Shown in pieces: positions 50,882 to 62,516 of a stretch of 64,000 bases of DNA. Each line of letters starts with the position of its first letter. Position 1 is the stretch's first letter. Made by a program: the position numbers and the translations under genes. The notes under the pieces were generated by a model, which saw only the letters and a program-made list of their open reading frames with translations, made no database searches and was not told where the DNA came from. This stretch comes from Verrucomicrobiia bacterium DG1235 (GTDB taxonomy: Bacteria > Verrucomicrobiota > Verrucomicrobiia > Opitutales > Opitutaceae). Where the stretch lies: NCBI GenBank assembly GCA_000155695.1, contig DS990592.1, positions 2,899,973-2,963,972 of the forward strand, read 5' to 3'.

Positions 50882-52486
<1,605 letters not shown>

Positions 52487-52490
<4 letters not shown>

Positions 52491-52661: not shown

Positions 52662-53423
52662 CTAAAATCCCTCCAAGCTATCGGGCATCAGATCGTAGGG
52701 CCAACGGCCCTCAGCTTGAGCTCTGGAAATAGGCGGCAATAGTTCGAGAGCCTCTAATTTAATCCTTTCCACATCCTTTGTCGCGATAGCCCTGCCATCA
52801 ATACAGACAGCTACTAGAAACCACCGCTGTTGCATTCGTTCTGACAAATCCACTAAGAACTCTTCACGATTTTTAGGACCTTCACAAAAGGTGAAGTCTG
52901 GACCATCATCTTCCTCGAATATCATCATGAAATGATAAGGGAGCTTTTCCCGTCTTGCTTGAGCTCTAAAGTCCTTGATCTGCTCCTTGCAGAATCGACG
53001 CAAGGTCTTTGTCGATGGGATTCTCGACGGGCGTTTCTTTGCGATCTCAAGCATCTCATCAAACAAGTTGGTCCCACCCAACATCGAAGATCGAAAATCG
53101 TCCCAGTCGCGTTCTAGGAGCCTTTGATAAAGCTCTTCGTCAGTTTCGAAAGGTATCGAGCCAGGAAAAACACCTGCATTACCATCGTCATAGCTGAGAC
53201 TGAATACTGGCTCGACTCCATCCAATCGCAATGAGAAGTCCACATCATCAGGAACTAACTCACCAATTCGATCCAGTATTCGCCTAGCAACTACAGTTTG
53301 CTCTACGGACAACCCTGAAATTCCTTCCGGATTGCTGTAACGCTCTAAGACAAGCTGTCCAAATTCATCCCGATCTAGAACGAGTGAGCCTGCGAGCGAA
53401 GAGTTTAATTCAAAAATGTTCAT
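52662..53423 (-). CDS. Hypothetical protein of the integrative element (253 aa)
   Basis: Acidic, soluble, no signal peptide or membrane segment. Begins MNIFELNSSLAGSLVLDRDE; has a basic helical segment (TLRRFCKEQIKDFRAQARRE) and a C-terminal strand-rich part (RWFLVAVCIDGRAIATKDVE). No family recognised. Position directly before xis and int in a tight operon suggests a role in element maintenance or control. Confidence 0.75.
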   Translation of the reverse strand: MNIFELNSSLAGSLVLDRDEFGQLVLERYSNPEGISGLSVEQTVVARRILDRIGELVPDDVDFSLRLDGVEPVFSLSYDDGNAGVFPGSIPFETDEELYQRLLERDWDDFRSSMLGGTNLFDEMLEIAKKRPSRIPSTKTLRRFCKEQIKDFRAQARREKLPYHFMMIFEEDDGPDFTFCEGPKNREEFLVDLSERMQQRWFLVAVCIDGRAIATKDVERIKLEALELLPPISRAQAEGRWPYDLMPDSLEGF

Positions 53424-53443: not shown

Positions 53444-53764
53444 CTACTTTTTGCCTTTTGACTTAATCGGCTTGGAACGATTGCTAAACTTCTCGCGGCA
53501 TTCATCTATGTATTTATCTAGCCTTCCCTTCGCATCATCTTGAGCGGTTTTTTCACCACTCGTGCTTTCAAGGAATAGCGTCACTATTTTCGCTAGCGTT
53601 GCCGATCTCGTGCGGTTCGTCACCAATCCGAGCACGTCGACACCCTTCTTTTCGTCCTCGCTGACCATGAAGCAGATAGTCTTGTCCCTTGGGGCTTCCA
53701 TTTCTCCCTGAGGTCGACGACCTGTCTTTCCTGTCAGCTTCGAGCGGGTATCCATTTCTGTCAT
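53444..53764 (-). CDS. Small putative regulator (ribbon-helix-helix-like)
   Basis: 106 aa from ATG 53764 (MTEMDTRSKLTGKTGRRPQG); an in-frame ATG at 53755 is possible. After a basic N-terminal arm, RDKTICFMVSEDEKKGVDVL followed by RSATLAKIVTLFLES resembles strand-helix-helix proteins (ribbon-helix-helix), and a Lys-rich tail follows. A 14-bp inverted repeat sits 18 bp before the start, which fits autoregulation. The assignment is by pattern only. Confidence 0.6.
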   Translation of the reverse strand: MTEMDTRSKLTGKTGRRPQGEMEAPRDKTICFMVSEDEKKGVDVLGLVTNRTRSATLAKIVTLFLESTSGEKTAQDDAKGRLDKYIDECREKFSNRSKPIKSKGKK

Positions 53765-53781
53765 GCAACGACTGATCCCCC

Positions 53782-53819
53782 AAACATATAGGTTTGTCAA
53801 TAAAGAAACCTATATGTTT
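53782..53819. promoter_or_regulatory. Perfect 14-bp inverted repeat, likely operator
   Basis: AAACATATAGGTTT (53782-53795) and AAACCTATATGTTT (53806-53819) are exact inverse complements 10 bp apart. They lie immediately upstream of the small regulator gene on the minus strand. No T-run follows, so binding by a dimeric or tetrameric repressor is the simplest reading. Confidence 0.65.
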
Positions 53820-54053: not shown

Positions 54054-54638
54054 TCAGCTAGCGATCAGCGTAGCGGTTGCCTTCATCAAATTTAGATAAT
54101 TATCGATCCGTGGACTACCATTTTCTACTTCAGTCAACAATCGGCCAGGCGTCATCCCCCGGGGCCAACTACCATAGATACTGGTGGCTATGGTTCGAAA
54201 CTGGAGCCTTACATTATCAGACCTGTGCACTATCCGATTACGAAGCTTTCTAATCGTCGTGAATGAGGGTGCAGCAAGTGGCTGGTACGGATGCTGGCCT
54301 TGGAACAAAGCGTTCGCCCTCATAAGCGTCCAGTGCTCATTCAACCACTTCCCAAATTGATTGTTCCCTATAGCAACCTGTTGAGCATTCGAAGATGTCG
54401 CAGATGCCGAAACCTGAAGTGCGTATGCTCTCCCGTGAATGCTCTGGCTGCCTCTAAGATAGCAAATGAAGGACTGCTCAAGGAACTCCTCCCAAGCCAG
54501 AGTTGCCCGAACAAATCGAAGCTCATTGAGGCGTTCTGCCCATACTCTCGATTCTAGTGAAAGCCCTTGCCACGCTGATAACTGATCAAGCTGCGAGGAT
54601 ACCTCGCGTAATTTTACTCTAAGAGATGGCCTACCCAT
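54054..54638 (-). CDS. HEPN-like protein with RNxxxH motif, partner of DUF262
   Basis: 194 aa, helical. The motif RNRIVH (Arg133-Asn134 ... His138) after IRKL is the Rx4-6H signature of HEPN ribonuclease domains. Earlier helices include RFVRATLAWEEFLEQSFICY, the typical HEPN helix with conserved acidic residues. The gene starts 14 bp after the DUF262 stop. HEPN proteins are usual toxins or RNases in defence and toxin-antitoxin loci, and HEPN proteins next to DUF262 are a recurrent pair. The exact HEPN subfamily is not certain. Confidence 0.7.
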   Translation of the reverse strand: MGRPSLRVKLREVSSQLDQLSAWQGLSLESRVWAERLNELRFVRATLAWEEFLEQSFICYLRGSQSIHGRAYALQVSASATSSNAQQVAIGNNQFGKWLNEHWTLMRANALFQGQHPYQPLAAPSFTTIRKLRNRIVHRSDNVRLQFRTIATSIYGSWPRGMTPGRLLTEVENGSPRIDNYLNLMKATATLIAS

Positions 54639-54652
54639 CGATTAACCAAGCC

Positions 54653-55705
54653 TTAGAGGGATTTAAAAATATTAATTAGGTACTCGTGACGCGTCCGACG
54701 AGGCCTAACATTGTCAGTTTGACGGGCTGAAGCAGTAACGAAACGAGCTAGTTTTTTTGGAGGTTCGTCAACCTTTGTCGCATTTGACAGCTCCTTGAGT
54801 TTAGCAACAAGATTTACTTGCTGCTTACTGCTTAGTGTTTTCGAGGGAAATCGATTCAGCTTACCAGAACCACCATCTATGCCATACAAGGCATCGCCAA
54901 CTGCCATAAACAGAGAATAAAACAATGCGGGTCTAGTGAAAACTGTGCCTTTAAGTTCAGACATTAGATTTTGCTGTAACCAATTCAACACCCGATCGAA
55001 CTTCTCGGTAACTTGCTTTTCACTAGGAAACTGGTCTTCGTAAGATTTATAATAACGGTCAAGAGAGGCTTTTTTATCCTGAAGTCCCGCCAACAACCCA
55101 ACTAGCAACTCAGAAGTTAATTCCGCCTCGCCCATTCTCGCGATCTTCTGATTAGTCAATATACTATTGCGAGTCCAGAACTCCAAGTGCTCAGTCCCAA
55201 GTCGATAAGCAACATCCTTAAACCGACCAAAGTACTTCGCGTTTCTTTTCTCCTGTGCATTGAGAGTCACGCTGTAAGAATTTATTCTAGCAAAGATCTG
55301 GAGAACCTGAGTGTCATTAGCTCCGACGAGCAAGTCTGCCGAGATGTCGTAAGATAGGATCGAACTTCTTACATCGTCTGGCAATTTCGAGAATTTCTTT
55401 CCCGCGGCAATCGATGAATGCGTTCTCGAAACTGCGAAATTATCATCGATGTAAGAAAACACCGCGTCTAGACGCTGCTGACCGTCTACGACTTCCCTAA
55501 TAGATTTTATCGAATTAGGATCAACCTGCATACGATAATAAATCTTAGGCATCGGCAAACCTCGCACGATCGTGTCGATAAGGTACGAGCGGGCGATCGG
55601 ACGCCAAACCTTTCTCCTTTGAAACTTTGGCTGCAGATAAAGCTCATCTTTTTTGTGCCAGTTGTAGAGATCCGAAATCGTGAAAGCTTGCGTTTTGAAT
55701 TCCAT
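54653..55705 (-). CDS. DUF262-domain protein (ParB-like NTPase fold)
   Basis: 350 aa. N-terminal DUF262: FTISDLYNWHKKDELYLQPK, FQRRKVWRPIARSYLIDTI, LPMPKIYYR, and the signature DGQQR (residues 74-78) in EVVDGQQRLDAVFSYID; then IFARINSYSVTLNAQEKRNA. The C-terminal part (about 150 residues) is helical. DUF262 is the ParB/Srx-like nucleotide-binding half of GmrSD and SspE restriction enzymes, where it senses modified DNA. Here the GmrD-like HNH half is missing and a HEPN-like gene follows instead. Confidence 0.88.
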   Translation of the reverse strand: MEFKTQAFTISDLYNWHKKDELYLQPKFQRRKVWRPIARSYLIDTIVRGLPMPKIYYRMQVDPNSIKSIREVVDGQQRLDAVFSYIDDNFAVSRTHSSIAAGKKFSKLPDDVRSSILSYDISADLLVGANDTQVLQIFARINSYSVTLNAQEKRNAKYFGRFKDVAYRLGTEHLEFWTRNSILTNQKIARMGEAELTSELLVGLLAGLQDKKASLDRYYKSYEDQFPSEKQVTEKFDRVLNWLQQNLMSELKGTVFTRPALFYSLFMAVGDALYGIDGGSGKLNRFPSKTLSSKQQVNLVAKLKELSNATKVDEPPKKLARFVTASARQTDNVRPRRTRHEYLINIFKSL

Positions 55706-55716
55706 TTTCCCTCGTC

Positions 55717-55992
55717 TTAGCTCATCAGGCGAGAACCAGCAACAAACTTTTTTACTAGACCAGATTGGTAAACCGGGACTCTGCCAAACCTGAATCTCTG
55801 CTCCTTGCCTACGCTAATTATATCTTCGTCACTCAAGATATTGCTCGCTTCGCTGCGCTCCAACTTGACCGCCTTCGCTAAATTCGCTTCGCCAGCGGGC
55901 AGGGATTCAACGATTGTCTTCCAAGGCCTGCCCCCGCAAAAAAGCTTCTCCGGACTGAAACTTTTCCAAGGAAACTGCCCTAACTCGAACAA
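55717..55992 (-). CDS. Possible small hypothetical protein (91 aa)
   Basis: A TTG-start frame after AAAGGAAAGAG overlaps the 3' end of the rep gene by 86 bp and stops 11 bp before the DUF262 gene. It reads MFELGQFPWKSFSPEKLF ... QRFRFGRVPVYQSGLVKKFV. It fills an otherwise open gap in a gene-dense element. No family recognised; start uncertain. Confidence 0.35.
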   Translation of the reverse strand: MFELGQFPWKSFSPEKLFCGGRPWKTIVESLPAGEANLAKAVKLERSEASNILSDEDIISVGKEQRFRFGRVPVYQSGLVKKFVAGSRLMS

Positions 55993-57223
55993 CTCTTTCC
56001 TTTAATTCAATCCCTCCCGCCTTGTAGTTCATGACAACCGCTATCGGCTCCGAAACTGGCGACAAGATAGGGGCTGGCTGAATGGTTGCAGTCACCCAGC
56101 TTCTCAATGGCCCCTCAAAGGGCTCCTTGTCCTTCTTTTTCTTGAACGAATTCCAGTTAGGAACCAAAGCCCAGCCAGGACCACCCTCACCTCCACGCCG
56201 CACCAAACGCATCCGCTCTTCCTCGATGGTCTTAATTTGATCCTTCAGCCTTCCCATAGGCTGCACCAAGTGCATTCGAAAGGTCTGCTCATATAGCTCC
56301 TTCAACTCCGGCCCCGTCAGCTTGAGAAGGTCCTGAGGCTTCACGAGATACTTGCACGCCTCCCTCGCCTGATTAATACGCTTCGCATCCGTCACGTGAG
56401 CTTTCCACCACCTATGCAAGCGACTCAACACCCCACTCCATTCCTCACGGGGAATGCGCCCTTTCAAATTAACGATCACATGCGCGTGAATGTGGAAAGT
56501 TGGCCTGCCATCTGAATCACGTTCCAAACTTCCGAGCTCTGAAGACCTGAACACCATTTCTATTCCGGCTTCCTTCATGAAGCTCTCCGAATTCAGCTTG
56601 GAAAGACGGCGATGCAACAGGCTCAGAGTATCCCTCGTATTCTCCAAACGGGTACGCGGTCCCGACGTAAATACCCACATCCGGCAATAGGGATGCTTCG
56701 ACATGAAGAACTCCAAATTGCGAAGCGCAGGAGCACGCTTCCGAGCCGCAACGAAAGGAATGAAGACAACATTCCGGAAGTCAGGCAACTCAAGCACCTC
56801 ACCCGAGCACAGACCCACCATGCAGATTCCACCCTTACCACGAACCTTAACATCGTTTTCCTCCAATCGATCCGCAATCCATTCACTCTGCTGCAACAAT
56901 CGCTCCCTGTCCTCCTTCTTTTTCTCAAAGTATTCCAGGTCCACAACAGCTCCGGAGTCAGCGCTGCACATTTCCAAGTATCGCTTTTCTTGATACGAAA
57001 CCCCTGCAGTGACTTCGTCGGGCGATGGAGGCGACGCCTCCAATCGCCCGTCGAGCGTCACATGCCAGCTCGGGTCTGCCAACAGCGAATCAATTACAGA
57101 ATTGCCAGTCAGACGAATCTCGTCATGGTCATTTGCTGTAACTTCTTTGGCTTTCGAAAGGCTTTGGTTATGTAAGACCTCCTGTGTTGGCGCACTGGGG
57201 GTCTTCCCGTCTAGGGGTCTCAC
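55907..57223 (-). CDS. rep: HUH-type rolling-circle replication initiator
   Basis: 438 aa from GTG 57223. The HUH metal motif is HIHAH (residues 244-248) in RPTFHIHAHVIVNL. The catalytic Tyr292 with Lys295 lies in REACKYLVKP. This order fits plasmid and phage Rep proteins of the rolling-circle class. The N-terminal 150 residues and the basic C-terminus have no clear domain. It likely nicks the element at an origin and supports replication of the excised circle. Its start overlaps the stop of the integrase-tail remnant (GTGA). Confidence 0.82.
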   Translation of the reverse strand: MRPLDGKTPSAPTQEVLHNQSLSKAKEVTANDHDEIRLTGNSVIDSLLADPSWHVTLDGRLEASPPSPDEVTAGVSYQEKRYLEMCSADSGAVVDLEYFEKKKEDRERLLQQSEWIADRLEENDVKVRGKGGICMVGLCSGEVLELPDFRNVVFIPFVAARKRAPALRNLEFFMSKHPYCRMWVFTSGPRTRLENTRDTLSLLHRRLSKLNSESFMKEAGIEMVFRSSELGSLERDSDGRPTFHIHAHVIVNLKGRIPREEWSGVLSRLHRWWKAHVTDAKRINQAREACKYLVKPQDLLKLTGPELKELYEQTFRMHLVQPMGRLKDQIKTIEEERMRLVRRGGEGGPGWALVPNWNSFKKKKDKEPFEGPLRSWVTATIQPAPILSPVSEPIAVVMNYKAGGIELKERVVRVRAVSLEKFQSGEAFLRGQALEDNR

Positions 57224-57435: not shown

Positions 57436-57461
57436 TTCGACTCCCGCCACCTCCACCAATT
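57436..57461. repeat. attR
   Basis: Right copy of the 26-bp direct repeat, identical to 51219-51244. It carries a tmRNA/tRNA-like T-loop and CCA end but no other tmRNA part. A TCC-loop hairpin starts within its last four bases. Confidence 0.9.
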
Positions 57462-59167: not shown

Positions 59168-60556
59168 GTGCCAGAGTCCCAAAACATCGAGTGGAAGCGC
59201 TCCTGGAAGGACGAATACCTCAAATGGGTATGCGGCTTCGCCAACGCAAAAGGCGGCAAGATCTACATCGGAAAAAACGACGACGGAGCCATCGCTCCGC
59301 TCAACAACGCGAAGCGACTCCTCGAAGAGATCCCGAACAAAATAAAGAGCCTCATCGGCCTGACCGTAGACGTTAACCTCAACCAAACGAAAGACGGAGA
59401 TTTCCTCGAAATCGATATTCTCCCGCAGTCCGTTCCCGTTTCCCTCAGAGGACGCTACTACTACCGCACCGGCAGCACGAAAATCGAGCTTACCGGAGCA
59501 AGCCTCAACGAGTTCCTTTTGAAGAAGTCAGGGTCCACCTGGGACGCCTCCATCGAAAGCCGGGCAAACCTCGAAGACATCGACTTGCGGAGCATCGATC
59601 AATTCCTTGCCAATGCCAAGACAGCCAATCGACTTCCAGACGCCAACGGCCTTCCCCTTCCAGACCTTCTAGCCAAACTGAGACTGCTAACCAACGGTCA
59701 ACTTACCTGTGCCGCTCTTATTCTGTTCGGCAAAGACCCAGCGAGGCTCTACCCGGGACTCAGTGTCCGCATCGGCCGCTTTGGCTCCTCCGACACGGAC
59801 TTGCGCTTCCAAGAAGTCATCGAAGGAAACTTGTTCTACTGCCTCAAAGAAACCCTCTCCCTCCTAGCCAGCAAATTTCTGATCAAGCCCGTCCGCTTCG
59901 CCGGCATCCAGCGCATCGAAGACGACCAGTACCCACTCCCCGCCCTTCGCGAGGCCCTGCTCAACGCCCTCGTGCATCGCCGCTACCAATCCGGCGTGCA
60001 CGTGCAAATTCGCGTCTACGACCACCGTCTCGTCATCTGGAACGACGGCCCGCTTCCCGAAGAAATATCCATCGAGGCCCTCCTAGGCCCCCATGCCTCC
60101 CGCCCTCGCAACCCCCTCATCGCCGATATCTGCTTCAAGGCAGGCTATATCGACTCCTGGGGCCGCGGCATCGAAAAAATCTCAAACGCTTTTCTCGAGG
60201 CAAACCTACCCTCGCCCCAGTTCGAGGAGAATTCCGGCGGCGTTCGCGTCACTCTTTTTTCTTCAAAACAAGCGACATCAGAATCCACCACCCCGGAAGT
60301 CACCCCGGAAGTCACCCCGGAAGTCACCCCGGAAGTCAAAAAGCTACTAACTGCCTTCTCTGGAGAACAAACGCGCCAGGAGCTACAAGCAACACTTGGA
60401 CTTAAAGACAACGAACACATGCGCTCCTCATATCTAAAACCAGCCTTGGACGACGAGCTAATCGAAATGACGATTCCAGACAAACCGAAGAGTCGACTAC
60501 AAAAATACCGCCTCACGAAAAAGGGAGAGAGGCTGATATCAACAAGCAAGGACTGA
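59168..60556 (+). CDS. AlbA/Schlafen-type ATP-binding protein
   Basis: 462 aa from GTG 59168. N-terminal AlbA_2 (Schlafen-like) domain: IEWKRSWKDEYLKWVCGFAN, AKGGKIYIGKNDDG. Then a HATPase_c_4-type domain: REALLNALVHRRYQSG, VYDHRLVIWNDGPLP, DSWGRGIEKI. A linker of four TPEV repeats leads to a C-terminal winged helix (TRQELQATLGLKDNEHMRSS, KYRLTKKGERL). The family is widespread in accessory DNA and annotated as transcriptional regulators. Some members are linked to defence islands. The actual role is unknown. Confidence 0.85.
   Translation: MPESQNIEWKRSWKDEYLKWVCGFANAKGGKIYIGKNDDGAIAPLNNAKRLLEEIPNKIKSLIGLTVDVNLNQTKDGDFLEIDILPQSVPVSLRGRYYYRTGSTKIELTGASLNEFLLKKSGSTWDASIESRANLEDIDLRSIDQFLANAKTANRLPDANGLPLPDLLAKLRLLTNGQLTCAALILFGKDPARLYPGLSVRIGRFGSSDTDLRFQEVIEGNLFYCLKETLSLLASKFLIKPVRFAGIQRIEDDQYPLPALREALLNALVHRRYQSGVHVQIRVYDHRLVIWNDGPLPEEISIEALLGPHASRPRNPLIADICFKAGYIDSWGRGIEKISNAFLEANLPSPQFEENSGGVRVTLFSSKQATSESTTPEVTPEVTPEVTPEVKKLLTAFSGEQTRQELQATLGLKDNEHMRSSYLKPALDDELIEMTIPDKPKSRLQKYRLTKKGERLISTSKD
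60290..60337 (+). repeat. Four tandem 12-bp units encoding TPEV
   Basis: ACCCCGGAAGTC occurs four times without change, between the ATPase-like domain and the winged helix of the 59168 gene. Perfect DNA identity shows recent expansion or contraction. The unit keeps the reading frame. Confidence 0.95.
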
Positions 60557-60787: not shown

Positions 60788-61618
60788 ATGGCACGAAACT
60801 CAAAAATTGAGTGGACTCACAACACCTTCAATCCTTGGTGGGGTTGCTCAAAAGTATCCCCTGCGTGCAAAAATTGCTACGCAGAAACTTGGGCAAAACG
60901 AGTTGGCAACAACATATGGGGCAAGGAGAACCCTAGACGGTTCTTTACAGACAAGCACTGGAAGGAACCTTTGAAATGGCAAAGGGAAGCCGAGAATAAT
61001 TCCGAACGTACTAGAGTGTTCTGTGCTTCAATGGCCGACGTATTTGAAAGAAGGGCCGAACTCAACGAACATAGAAATCGCCTCTGGGAGCTAGTTTACC
61101 GCACCCCATCACTCGATTGGCTCATCTTGACAAAAAGGCCGCAAAACATCGAAGGAATGGTCCCTTGGGACAACAACAACTGGCCGAATAATGTATGGAT
61201 CGGGACAACTGTTGAGAATCAAAAATGGGCAGACTTCCGCCTTCCCATCTTACTCAACCTGAATGCTAAAGTACGTTTCCTCAGCTGCGAACCCCTGCTT
61301 GGCGAAATCGACATTACATCTTACAACGCGGCATCCGATACCAACAAAATCGATTGGATAATAGCAGGAGGGGAAAGCGGACCTCACTCTCGTCCAATGA
61401 ACCCCAATTGGGTACGAAGCTTAAGGGACCAGTGCATAAATGAGGAAATTGCCTTTCACTTTAAACAATGGGGACACTGGAGCCCTCATTCACTCCTTAC
61501 TTCAACTCAGAAAAAAACTATAACTATAGAAGACACTGAAATGACAGCCACAGGAAAAAAGGCATCTGGAAGAACCCTCGACGGAAGAATTTGGGACGAG
61601 CTACCCTCCTCCGCTTAA
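60788..61618 (+). CDS. DUF5131 (phage Gp37/Gp68-like) three-Cys-motif protein
   Basis: 276 aa. N-terminus SKIEWTHNTFNPWWGCSKVS holds Cys20, with Cys27 and Cys30 in PACKNCYAE: the three-Cys motif. Further signatures: RVFCASMADVFE, WLILTKRPQNI, NVWIGTTVENQ, VRFLSCEPLLG, WIIAGGESGP, FKQWG. The fold is thought to be radical-SAM-like TIM barrel, but the Cys spacing differs from the classic CxxxCxxC. First gene of a tight operon with tcmP (10 bp gap) and a NACHT gene. Confidence 0.9.
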   Translation: MARNSKIEWTHNTFNPWWGCSKVSPACKNCYAETWAKRVGNNIWGKENPRRFFTDKHWKEPLKWQREAENNSERTRVFCASMADVFERRAELNEHRNRLWELVYRTPSLDWLILTKRPQNIEGMVPWDNNNWPNNVWIGTTVENQKWADFRLPILLNLNAKVRFLSCEPLLGEIDITSYNAASDTNKIDWIIAGGESGPHSRPMNPNWVRSLRDQCINEEIAFHFKQWGHWSPHSLLTSTQKKTITIEDTEMTATGKKASGRTLDGRIWDELPSSA

Positions 61619-61628
61619 CCTCAAAAAC

Positions 61629-62516
61629 ATGGAATCCAACACCCACCTTTTTGACCTAAACGACTATACGAACGAAGCGAAAGGCAAAGGATACCTACCC
61701 CTAGACTATCCGCTCTGGACTAAAAACAAGGCTCATTTTATTGCGAGGTACCTCAAGTCCTTTACGTACGTCACAAGGCATGGCACATATATTGACGCCT
61801 TTGCAGGGCCCCAACACGAAGAGAGTCGCAACGACTCATGGGCAGCTAAACTTGTTATGCAAAACGAGCCCGCGTGGCTCAGAAACTTCCATCTTTTTGA
61901 TCTAGCCTCAGATCAAATTGGCCATCTGAAGAATATAAAGAAAGAATACCTCGAAAAACACCCAAAGAAGCCGCTTAGAACAGTCACTATCACTGAAGGC
62001 GACTGCAACACAACCCTACCGCGATTTCTAAATGAAAACCCCATACAAGAAAAGGAAGCATCATTCTGTCTTTTCGACCAAAGAAGCACCGAGTGTGCGT
62101 GGGAAACTGTAAAATACGTAGCTGAACATAAAGGAGGTAAAGGCGGACATAAAATCGAACTCTTTTATTTCCTTCCGCAAGGATGGATAGACCGAACAAT
62201 CAAAAGCTGGAAAAATGATGTCGAAAGTCGTTGTCTGCGATGGTGGGGACGCGCAGACGTTTTAAATTTTCTAAAGCTTCGCAGCAATGAACGGGGAATC
62301 GCGATGGCCGATCGATTCAGAGAGGAACTAGGGTACAAATATTCCTTTCCATTCCCTATTCAAAAATTTGGCAAGAATGGGGCCGTCATGTTTTGGATGA
62401 TACACGCGTCCGACCACAGCCGTGCAACTGACTTGATGAGACAATCCTACAATTTCATTGGTGCAGGTGGCGGCGTATCCGATCCCTGCGAACAATTCGA
62501 ACTGAAAATTGAGTAA
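61629..62516 (+). CDS. tcmP: Three-Cys-motif partner protein TcmP
   Basis: 295 aa. Characteristic TcmP stretches: FIARYLKSFTYVTRHGTYID then AFAGP, ASFCLFDQRSTECAWETVKY, KIELFYFLPQGWIDR, and RFREELGYKY with a C-terminal VMFWMIHASDHSRATDLM. Members are named for always accompanying the three-Cys-motif protein; their activity is not established. The D-A-F-A-G-P motif recalls the SAM-binding loop of Rossmann methyltransferases, so a methyltransferase-like fold is possible. The NACHT gene starts 1 bp after its stop. Confidence 0.88.
   Translation: MESNTHLFDLNDYTNEAKGKGYLPLDYPLWTKNKAHFIARYLKSFTYVTRHGTYIDAFAGPQHEESRNDSWAAKLVMQNEPAWLRNFHLFDLASDQIGHLKNIKKEYLEKHPKKPLRTVTITEGDCNTTLPRFLNENPIQEKEASFCLFDQRSTECAWETVKYVAEHKGGKGGHKIELFYFLPQGWIDRTIKSWKNDVESRCLRWWGRADVLNFLKLRSNERGIAMADRFREELGYKYSFPFPIQKFGKNGAVMFWMIHASDHSRATDLMRQSYNFIGAGGGVSDPCEQFELKIE

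Follow-up and report, generated by a model that had tools for sequence, protein, structure and literature searches.

Genetic organization of the ssrA island

The window, which is the whole analyzed stretch of 64,000 nucleotides from Verrucomicrobiia bacterium DG1235, carries an island of about 6.2 kb at the tmRNA gene ssrA, bounded by a perfect 26-bp repeat. A pair of adjacent genes encoding a DUF262 protein and a HEPN-like protein is located inside the island. The features are the following:

50882..51241, + strand: tmRNA gene (ssrA), the integration site (ARAGORN, Rfam RF00023)
51204..52490, - strand: tyrosine integrase overlapping the tmRNA 3' end (PF00589 E 3.5e-13; phrog_1 E 1.7e-37)
51219..51244, + strand: left att repeat at the 3' end of the tmRNA (perfect 26-bp direct repeat)
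52662..53423, - strand: 253-aa island protein (ORF)
53444..53800, - strand: 118-aa island protein (ORF)
54054..54638, - strand: HEPN-like protein of 194 aa with R133-x4-H138, candidate RNase effector (motif, model pLDDT 94.4)
54653..55705, - strand: DUF262 / GmrSD_N protein of 350 aa (Pfam PF03235 E 1.7e-20)
55907..57223, - strand: replication-initiator-like protein (weak; PF23343 E 0.0019, below cut-off)
57436..57461, + strand: right att repeat (perfect 26-bp direct repeat)

The DUF262 gene (55705..54653) precedes the HEPN gene (54638..54054) on the minus strand with 14 nt between them, the spacing already given in the first-pass annotation. The same annotation had placed the pair on a small mobile element, and this is borne out by the repeat, the integrase and a tmRNA site with varying cargo. 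Allowing up to 3 mismatches, the 26-bp att repeat occurs only twice in the window and not at all in 100 shuffles, and its first 23 nt occur only twice in the genome when up to 2 mismatches are allowed. No match was found for the 253-aa and 118-aa proteins in Pfam, PADLOC or NCBIfam at E up to 1, or in PHROG at E up to 0.1. Near the pair, two promoter-like sites were counted versus 3.0 expected, and six terminator-like sites versus 2.8 (sd 1.8); no conclusion was based on these counts.

Integrases 45% and 42% identical to that of the window are found at the same tmRNA position in two congeners, G002 and G005. Two att copies 5.04 kb apart enclose the integrase in G002, and the other island proteins have no match in this element (tblastn E up to 1e-3). 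The cargo of this element (the element is at L130 422-5485) includes a 411-aa protein with a SIR2_2 match of 22.8 bits (cut-off 24.5), for which a PDB sequence search returned nothing. A 461-aa ORF beside this cargo contains an HLHML stretch which by eye resembles HIHAH of the replication-like protein in the window. In G005 the second att was not seen within the 15 kb examined, and in G001 and G006 such an integrase was found neither in the whole genome (E 1e-20) nor in the stretches after their tmRNA. The integrases of G002 and G005, together with the differing cargo of G002, indicate that integration at ssrA recurs, with cargo that varies, and the DUF262-HEPN pair is one such cargo.

Just outside the island, a DUF5131 protein and a three-Cys-motif partner TcmP are encoded in tandem (60788-62516) and match both parts of the PADLOC candidate defence system PDC-M41 (8.4e-63 and 1.4e-9). 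A protein with SLFN/AlbA_2, HATPase_c_4 and Fic-like_C domains adjoins the island at 59168-60556.

The DUF262 protein

The 350-aa protein comprises a ParB/Srx-like NTPase domain at residues ~1-147, with DGQQR at 74-78, followed by an alpha-helical C-terminal part. DUF262 with DGQQR is a hallmark of GmrSD, and the claim of the first-pass annotation that the motif is intact here was confirmed (PF03235 E 1.7e-20; D74-G75-Q76-Q77-R78). D74, G75, Q76 and Q77 are invariant and R78 is nearly invariant in the DUF262 alignment A6, whose 67 rows consist of 66 loci from the best 80 of 170 and the window. GmrSD_C (DUF1524/HNH) had no Pfam match in this protein or in nine other window proteins scanned; in contrast, a Rhizobium protein in locus L004 possesses both GmrSD_N and GmrSD_C.

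The structure model of the DUF262 protein (pLDDT 93.1) matches residues 1-420 of BrxU (Foldseek E 3.2e-4; VIA Z 9.6, 296 aligned, rmsd 17.5, a value which suggests that the parts are probably arranged differently in BrxU and the model). It also matches SspE, and its residues ~1-147 match ParB/sulfiredoxin domains (Foldseek/VIA). Among the PADLOC models, NsnA (2e-36) scored better on this protein than PD-T4-2_A (4.5e-21). A scan of viral contigs returned a single locus, with 31% identity over residues 73-158.

The HEPN-like protein

HEPN relatives were collected with a first profile, A1, built from five HEPN proteins, one of which (L002) has no DUF262 partner. Two alignments were then used. A4 has 76 rows: 72 of 73 HEPN loci (L019 is cut and was left out), the window and three plasmid proteins. 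A5 has 71 rows, composed of 70 of 72 loci and the window; L066, where the HEPN is split into two ORFs, and L083 were left out. No column of A4 other than R133 and H138 is fully invariant (76/76 for these two, window included). In A5 the counts are 71 for E50, R133 and H138 and 66 for E54, and the residue after R133 is N, H or D in all 71 rows. The RNRIVH stretch, the invariance of R and H, and the N, H or D after R conform to the HEPN R-x4-6-H motif. Two positions after the histidine, Ser (57), Thr (9) or Gln (5) occurs, thus Ser or Thr in 66 of the 71 rows.

The AlphaFold model of the protein has a pLDDT of 94.4. The first fifteen rows of VIA-align are HEPN-type structures with Z 7.7-9.0 (best 7ae9, rmsd 4.0, 128 aligned), although Z values under ~13 can reflect the common arrangement of helical bundles. 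Ten of the fifteen are titled HEPN or HepT, and 1jog, 1wty, 1wwp, 1ylm and 7bxo we take to be of HepT/HEPN type. The next row is a designed protein (Z 6.6), with unrelated helical proteins below it. Foldseek alone gave no match at E up to 0.001. The clean grouping of the VIA rows, together with the invariant R/H motif, leads us to predict a HEPN-type fold for the 194-aa protein. The first-pass annotation had read RNRIVH as the HEPN RNase signature, and had made this reading depend on the predicted fold and on conservation of Arg133 and His138; on both points it held.

Its proposed profile search turned out less favourable. RiboL-PSP-HEPN (PF18735) touches residues 124-145 of the window protein, the R/H region, with E 0.44 and 10.9 bits against a gathering cut-off of 28.4, and 14 of the 76 members reach this family at E <=0.01 (best 6.6e-6). 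The window protein has no match to a PADLOC model at E up to 1 and none in NCBIfam or PHROG. Searching the PDB sequences with the HEPN profile yielded no more than three weak rows, each of them a golgin chain. With tblastn the Rhizobium pair was found in a plasmid record (E 3e-5), along with a weak phage record (E 0.2), and no relative was confirmed in the scan of viral contigs.

Association of DUF262 and HEPN genes

A sensor-seeded survey of the species-genome collection used as query an alignment of the DUF262 proteins from the window, the Rhizobium plasmid (L004) and a Glutamicibacter plasmid (L005), and the best 80 of 170 confirmed loci were kept. A HEPN gene recognized by profile A1 adjoins DUF262 in 73 of these 80 loci, and after inspection in 76 of the 78 that could be assessed. 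L049 and L076 were not counted among the 78, since they end within 38 nt of the gene. Inspection revealed a cut HEPN start beside DUF262 in L082 and divergent HEPN proteins with RNYFCH or RNFFAH in L084 and L092, whose A1 matches are weak (E 0.0015 and 1.7e-4). The latter two, together with the HEPN of an Escherichia phage record (L107), align to the family profile over 197 columns with R and H in register (hhalign probability 97). L039 shows no HEPN in 469 nt, and a type II methyltransferase takes its place in L086. All three seeds are HEPN-paired and the rows are not independent, so these counts describe a clade rather than DUF262 at large. Within the sampled clade, pairing is near-constant and far beyond chance, and the two genes are supported as a stable unit. 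The paired genes are mostly separated by gaps ranging from small overlaps to ~30 nt (loci from the best 80 of 170), a spacing in keeping with coupled translation.

The first-pass annotation regarded DUF262 of GmrSD/SspE as normally linked to an HNH nuclease, which a HEPN would have replaced at this locus. The survey for a HEPN neighbour, which it had suggested, does not support such a replacement: HEPN is the usual partner in this DUF262 clade, and the neighbours of other DUF262 proteins include a kinase, Menshen genes and HEPN proteins of other families. A one-off HNH swap at this locus was accordingly rejected.

The HEPN-paired rows span 14 phylum labels (loci from the best 80 of 170). Two of the labels, those of L016 and L046, are archaeal; both belong to metagenome-assembled contigs of ~30 kb, and the Methanosarcinales row stands beside a Chitinophagaceae row, so wrong binning is as possible as inter-domain transfer. 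The pair is carried by plasmids, by the ssrA island and, in a distant form, by the Escherichia phage record.

Searches starting from HEPN show that its relatives are rare and scattered. They were found in 4 of 387 genomes in the phylum of the window (A1, E up to 1e-3), and with A5 at E up to 1e-5 in 2 of 398 in the phylum of a Bradyrhizobium and 5 of 296 in that of an Olleya, each count including the centre genome. DUF262 adjoins 8 of these 11 matches, or 5 of 8 without the three centre genomes. The weakest matches of these searches, L012, L014 and L104, have no DUF262 within their loci of 3.5-3.7 kb. The two surveys overlap, as L013 and L099 look like loci L053 and L065 of the sensor-seeded one.

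Some individual loci deserve mention. In Escherichia phage vB_EcoM-689R6 (L107 3477-5188), a DUF262 gene and a 216-aa HEPN gene (RNACAH) lie between an integrase and icd; the DNA of this pair is also present in 9 of 5426 complete E. coli genomes. In Rhizobium (L004 7982-12717) a 769-aa ORF with no Pfam match comes after the pair, and then a full GmrSD (705 aa). A PADLOC scan covering 122 of 160 selected neighbours found Gabija GajA, methyltransferases and a reverse transcriptase among the 25 of 85 families listed, mostly as one protein each; as the scan had no control, it was not counted as evidence.

Phylogeny and co-divergence

Distance matrices of DUF262 and HEPN were compared over the 64 rows common to A5 and A6 (loci from the best 80 of 170). 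Their correlation is r = 0.92, whereas the maximum in 2000 permutations was 0.20. Shared ancestry alone would also yield such a value, which thus indicates joint inheritance rather than contact. HEPN evolves faster, with a median identity of 22% versus 39% for DUF262.

A DUF262 tree of 79 rows was constructed by a quick method; its branches are long and its deep joins unsure. The 70 HEPN-paired rows group with the methyltransferase row L086 (SH-aLRT 90, not starred). Outside this group are the kinase-paired L006, L009 and L010 and the plasmid rows from E. coli and Klebsiella, whose HEPN proteins score above the cut-offs for PF18737 and PF18735. When profile A5 was compared with the single HEPN proteins of the Klebsiella and E. 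coli plasmids, the R/H stretch aligned but the match fell short of significance, and the controls (L096 and window 52662-53423) gave no match. A separate plasmid branch of DUF262 is accompanied by an annotated protein kinase (L006 3992-6138, L009 3974-6218, L010 3971-6113), which was checked with Pfam for L006 and taken from annotation for L009 and L010.

Putative mechanism and alternative explanations

The pair is real and conserved, and it is probably a defence system of partly known type that is co-inherited across very different microbes. As a class of mechanism, we consider it likely that an NTP-using DUF262 sensor controls or restrains a HEPN RNase which is released on infection. The DUF262 protein, a putative GmrS/BrxU-like NTPase sensor with no nuclease domain, would form a complex with the HEPN protein and hold it in check. 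It would recognize an invader, possibly through modified phage DNA or another phage product, and NTP binding or hydrolysis may then alter the complex and free or activate a HEPN dimer. The dimer would cut RNA via R133 and H138, and growth stop or death of the infected cell may follow (abortive infection). Modified DNA as the trigger is a plausible but tentative choice, for which we see somewhat more doubt than promise.

Several observations point to a DUF262 sensor with a HEPN RNase in defence. They include the pairing in 73/80 and 76/78 loci (best 80 of 170) with short gaps and r of 0.92, the invariance of R133 and H138, HEPN-MNT structures as nearest folds (Z 9.0 versus 6.6 for the first unrelated one), and the BrxU match. 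The rare, scattered HEPN relatives, their carriage on plasmids, a phage record and an island, and the analogue PD-T4-2, which protects both its native strain and K-12 from T4 according to the accessible part of PMC9519451, are also in favour of it. On the other side are the Foldseek null, the warning on Z under ~13, the three loci L012, L014 and L104 without DUF262, the lack of a PADLOC match for the window HEPN, and the r of 0.92 being expected from shared ancestry too.

The main rival is a toxin-antitoxin or addiction module, in which a DUF262 antitoxin would keep the HEPN RNase inactive and maintenance of the element, not phage sensing, would be the main effect. The putative antitoxin-first gene order with short gaps, the HEPN-MNT toxin-antitoxin structures as nearest folds and the mobile-element location are all consistent with it. 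However, DUF262 resembles the phage-DNA restriction NTPases BrxU and SspE, HEPN relatives without a DUF262 neighbour exist, and the accessible part of PMC10952713 counts PD-T4-2, Menshen and Dazbog, all with DUF262, among the defence systems. We judge the addiction role to be rather unlikely.

That the pair is a diverged PD-T4-2 itself appears less probable again. PD-T4-2 is listed under both DUF262 and the HEPN family PF18735 in the same part of PMC10952713, the window DUF262 matches PD-T4-2_A (4.5e-21), and the Rhizobium HEPN homologue touches PD-T4-2_B with E 0.048. But the window HEPN has no PD-T4-2_B match at E up to 1, only one of the 76 members reaches E 0.01 (at 0.0067), and the window DUF262 prefers NsnA. 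This comparison was made by models, and PD-T4-2_B may be narrow, for the clear PF18735 partner in L097 escapes it too. Searches for PD-T4-2_B in the genome of the window, in 14 genomes or records behind the loci and in 197 genomes from the order to which Mixta belongs found no match.

A HEPN protein which is catalytically dead or acts on DNA, with a structural or nicking role beside DUF262, is very improbable: inactive HEPN families appear in a table of the accessible part of PMC3710099, but R and H invariant in 76/76 sequences would be unexpected for a purely structural role.

Returning to the DUF262 sensor restraining a HEPN RNase, the restraint could conceivably be covalent, through NTP-dependent phosphoryl or nucleotidyl transfer to the near-invariant Ser/Thr two positions after the histidine. 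In that case DUF262 would act as the ParB/sulfiredoxin-fold equivalent of the MNT antitoxin, and phage DNA or nucleotide depletion by the phage would relieve the block. We give this idea very little credence; a duller reading is that the Ser/Thr is a helix N-cap, as the next helix of the model begins at residue 141. If covalent silencing were true, DUF262 would serve as a general sensing chassis whose effectors can be exchanged (at least two HEPN lineages, protein kinase, OLD and HNH).

These results describe a clade of nuclease-less DUF262 sensors tied to a single HEPN family that evolves fast. Defence surveys may count too few of these pairs, even with the DUF262 half detected, since the HEPN half is poorly recognized by the models used: the window protein is missed by PADLOC and by the Pfam cut-off, and PD-T4-2_B is reached by 1/76 (E 0.01). 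The pair may offer a simple two-protein case of how a DUF262 NTPase signals to a separate effector, which BrxU and SspE do within one protein. The distant homologue in E. coli (the Escherichia phage record and nine chromosomes) is a tractable case.

Comparison with known systems

The window DUF262 shares its domain and DGQQR with GmrSD, BrxU and SspE, and differs from them in having no DUF1524/HNH match, the candidate effector being a separate HEPN protein. Membership in GmrSD was rejected, as the DUF1524/HNH domain was not found. The accessible part of PMC12839542, on BREX-related systems, makes no mention of the pair.

HEPN-MNT modules provide the nearest solved folds and resemble the pair in their R-x4-H spacing (R102/H107 in the 7ae entry titles) and in forming a two-gene unit. 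However, the partner in the window is a ParB/Srx-type DUF262 instead of a nucleotidyltransferase, and the position two after the histidine is Ser/Thr in 66/71 rows versus Tyr in 7ae2 (title H107A-Y109F). Membership was rejected, since no MNT partner was found.

Menshen (NsnABC) has DUF262 in its NsnA, which the window protein matches (2e-36); the assignment of NsnA to Menshen was taken from gene annotation. In a Vibrio phage, NsnA has 629 aa, with the NsnA/DUF262 match starting at residue 222, and is followed by NsnB and NsnC. By contrast, no NsnB or NsnC match was found among six island proteins scanned, and membership in Menshen was rejected.

DUF262 beside HEPN has already been published. 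In its accessible part, the 2013 HEPN survey (PMC3710099) tabulates 'Ribo L-PSP-HEPN ... operon with ParB', places the MAE_28990 HEPN in an operon with ParB nuclease and DNA methylase genes, and describes HEPN fused to ParB (DUF262) with HNH. The likeness is a HEPN adjoining a ParB-fold gene, with 14/76 members of the present family reaching PF18735; the window HEPN differs in falling below that cut-off (10.9 versus 28.4 bits). The PF18737/PF18735 plasmid pairs have their DUF262 on another branch of the quick, long-branched tree. A plasmid gene table already labels an E. coli pair as DUF262 and 'MAE_28990/MAE_18760 family HEPN-like nuclease'. Titles and abstracts in the literature searched, a scope beyond which preprints and most subscription papers lay, included none on this HEPN family or on a DUF262-HEPN mechanism. 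PD-T4-2, published in 2022 as a phage-defence system, shares the DUF262 and HEPN composition and differs in its HEPN model and in the preference of the window DUF262 for NsnA. The pair in the window is a widespread variant of the published type.
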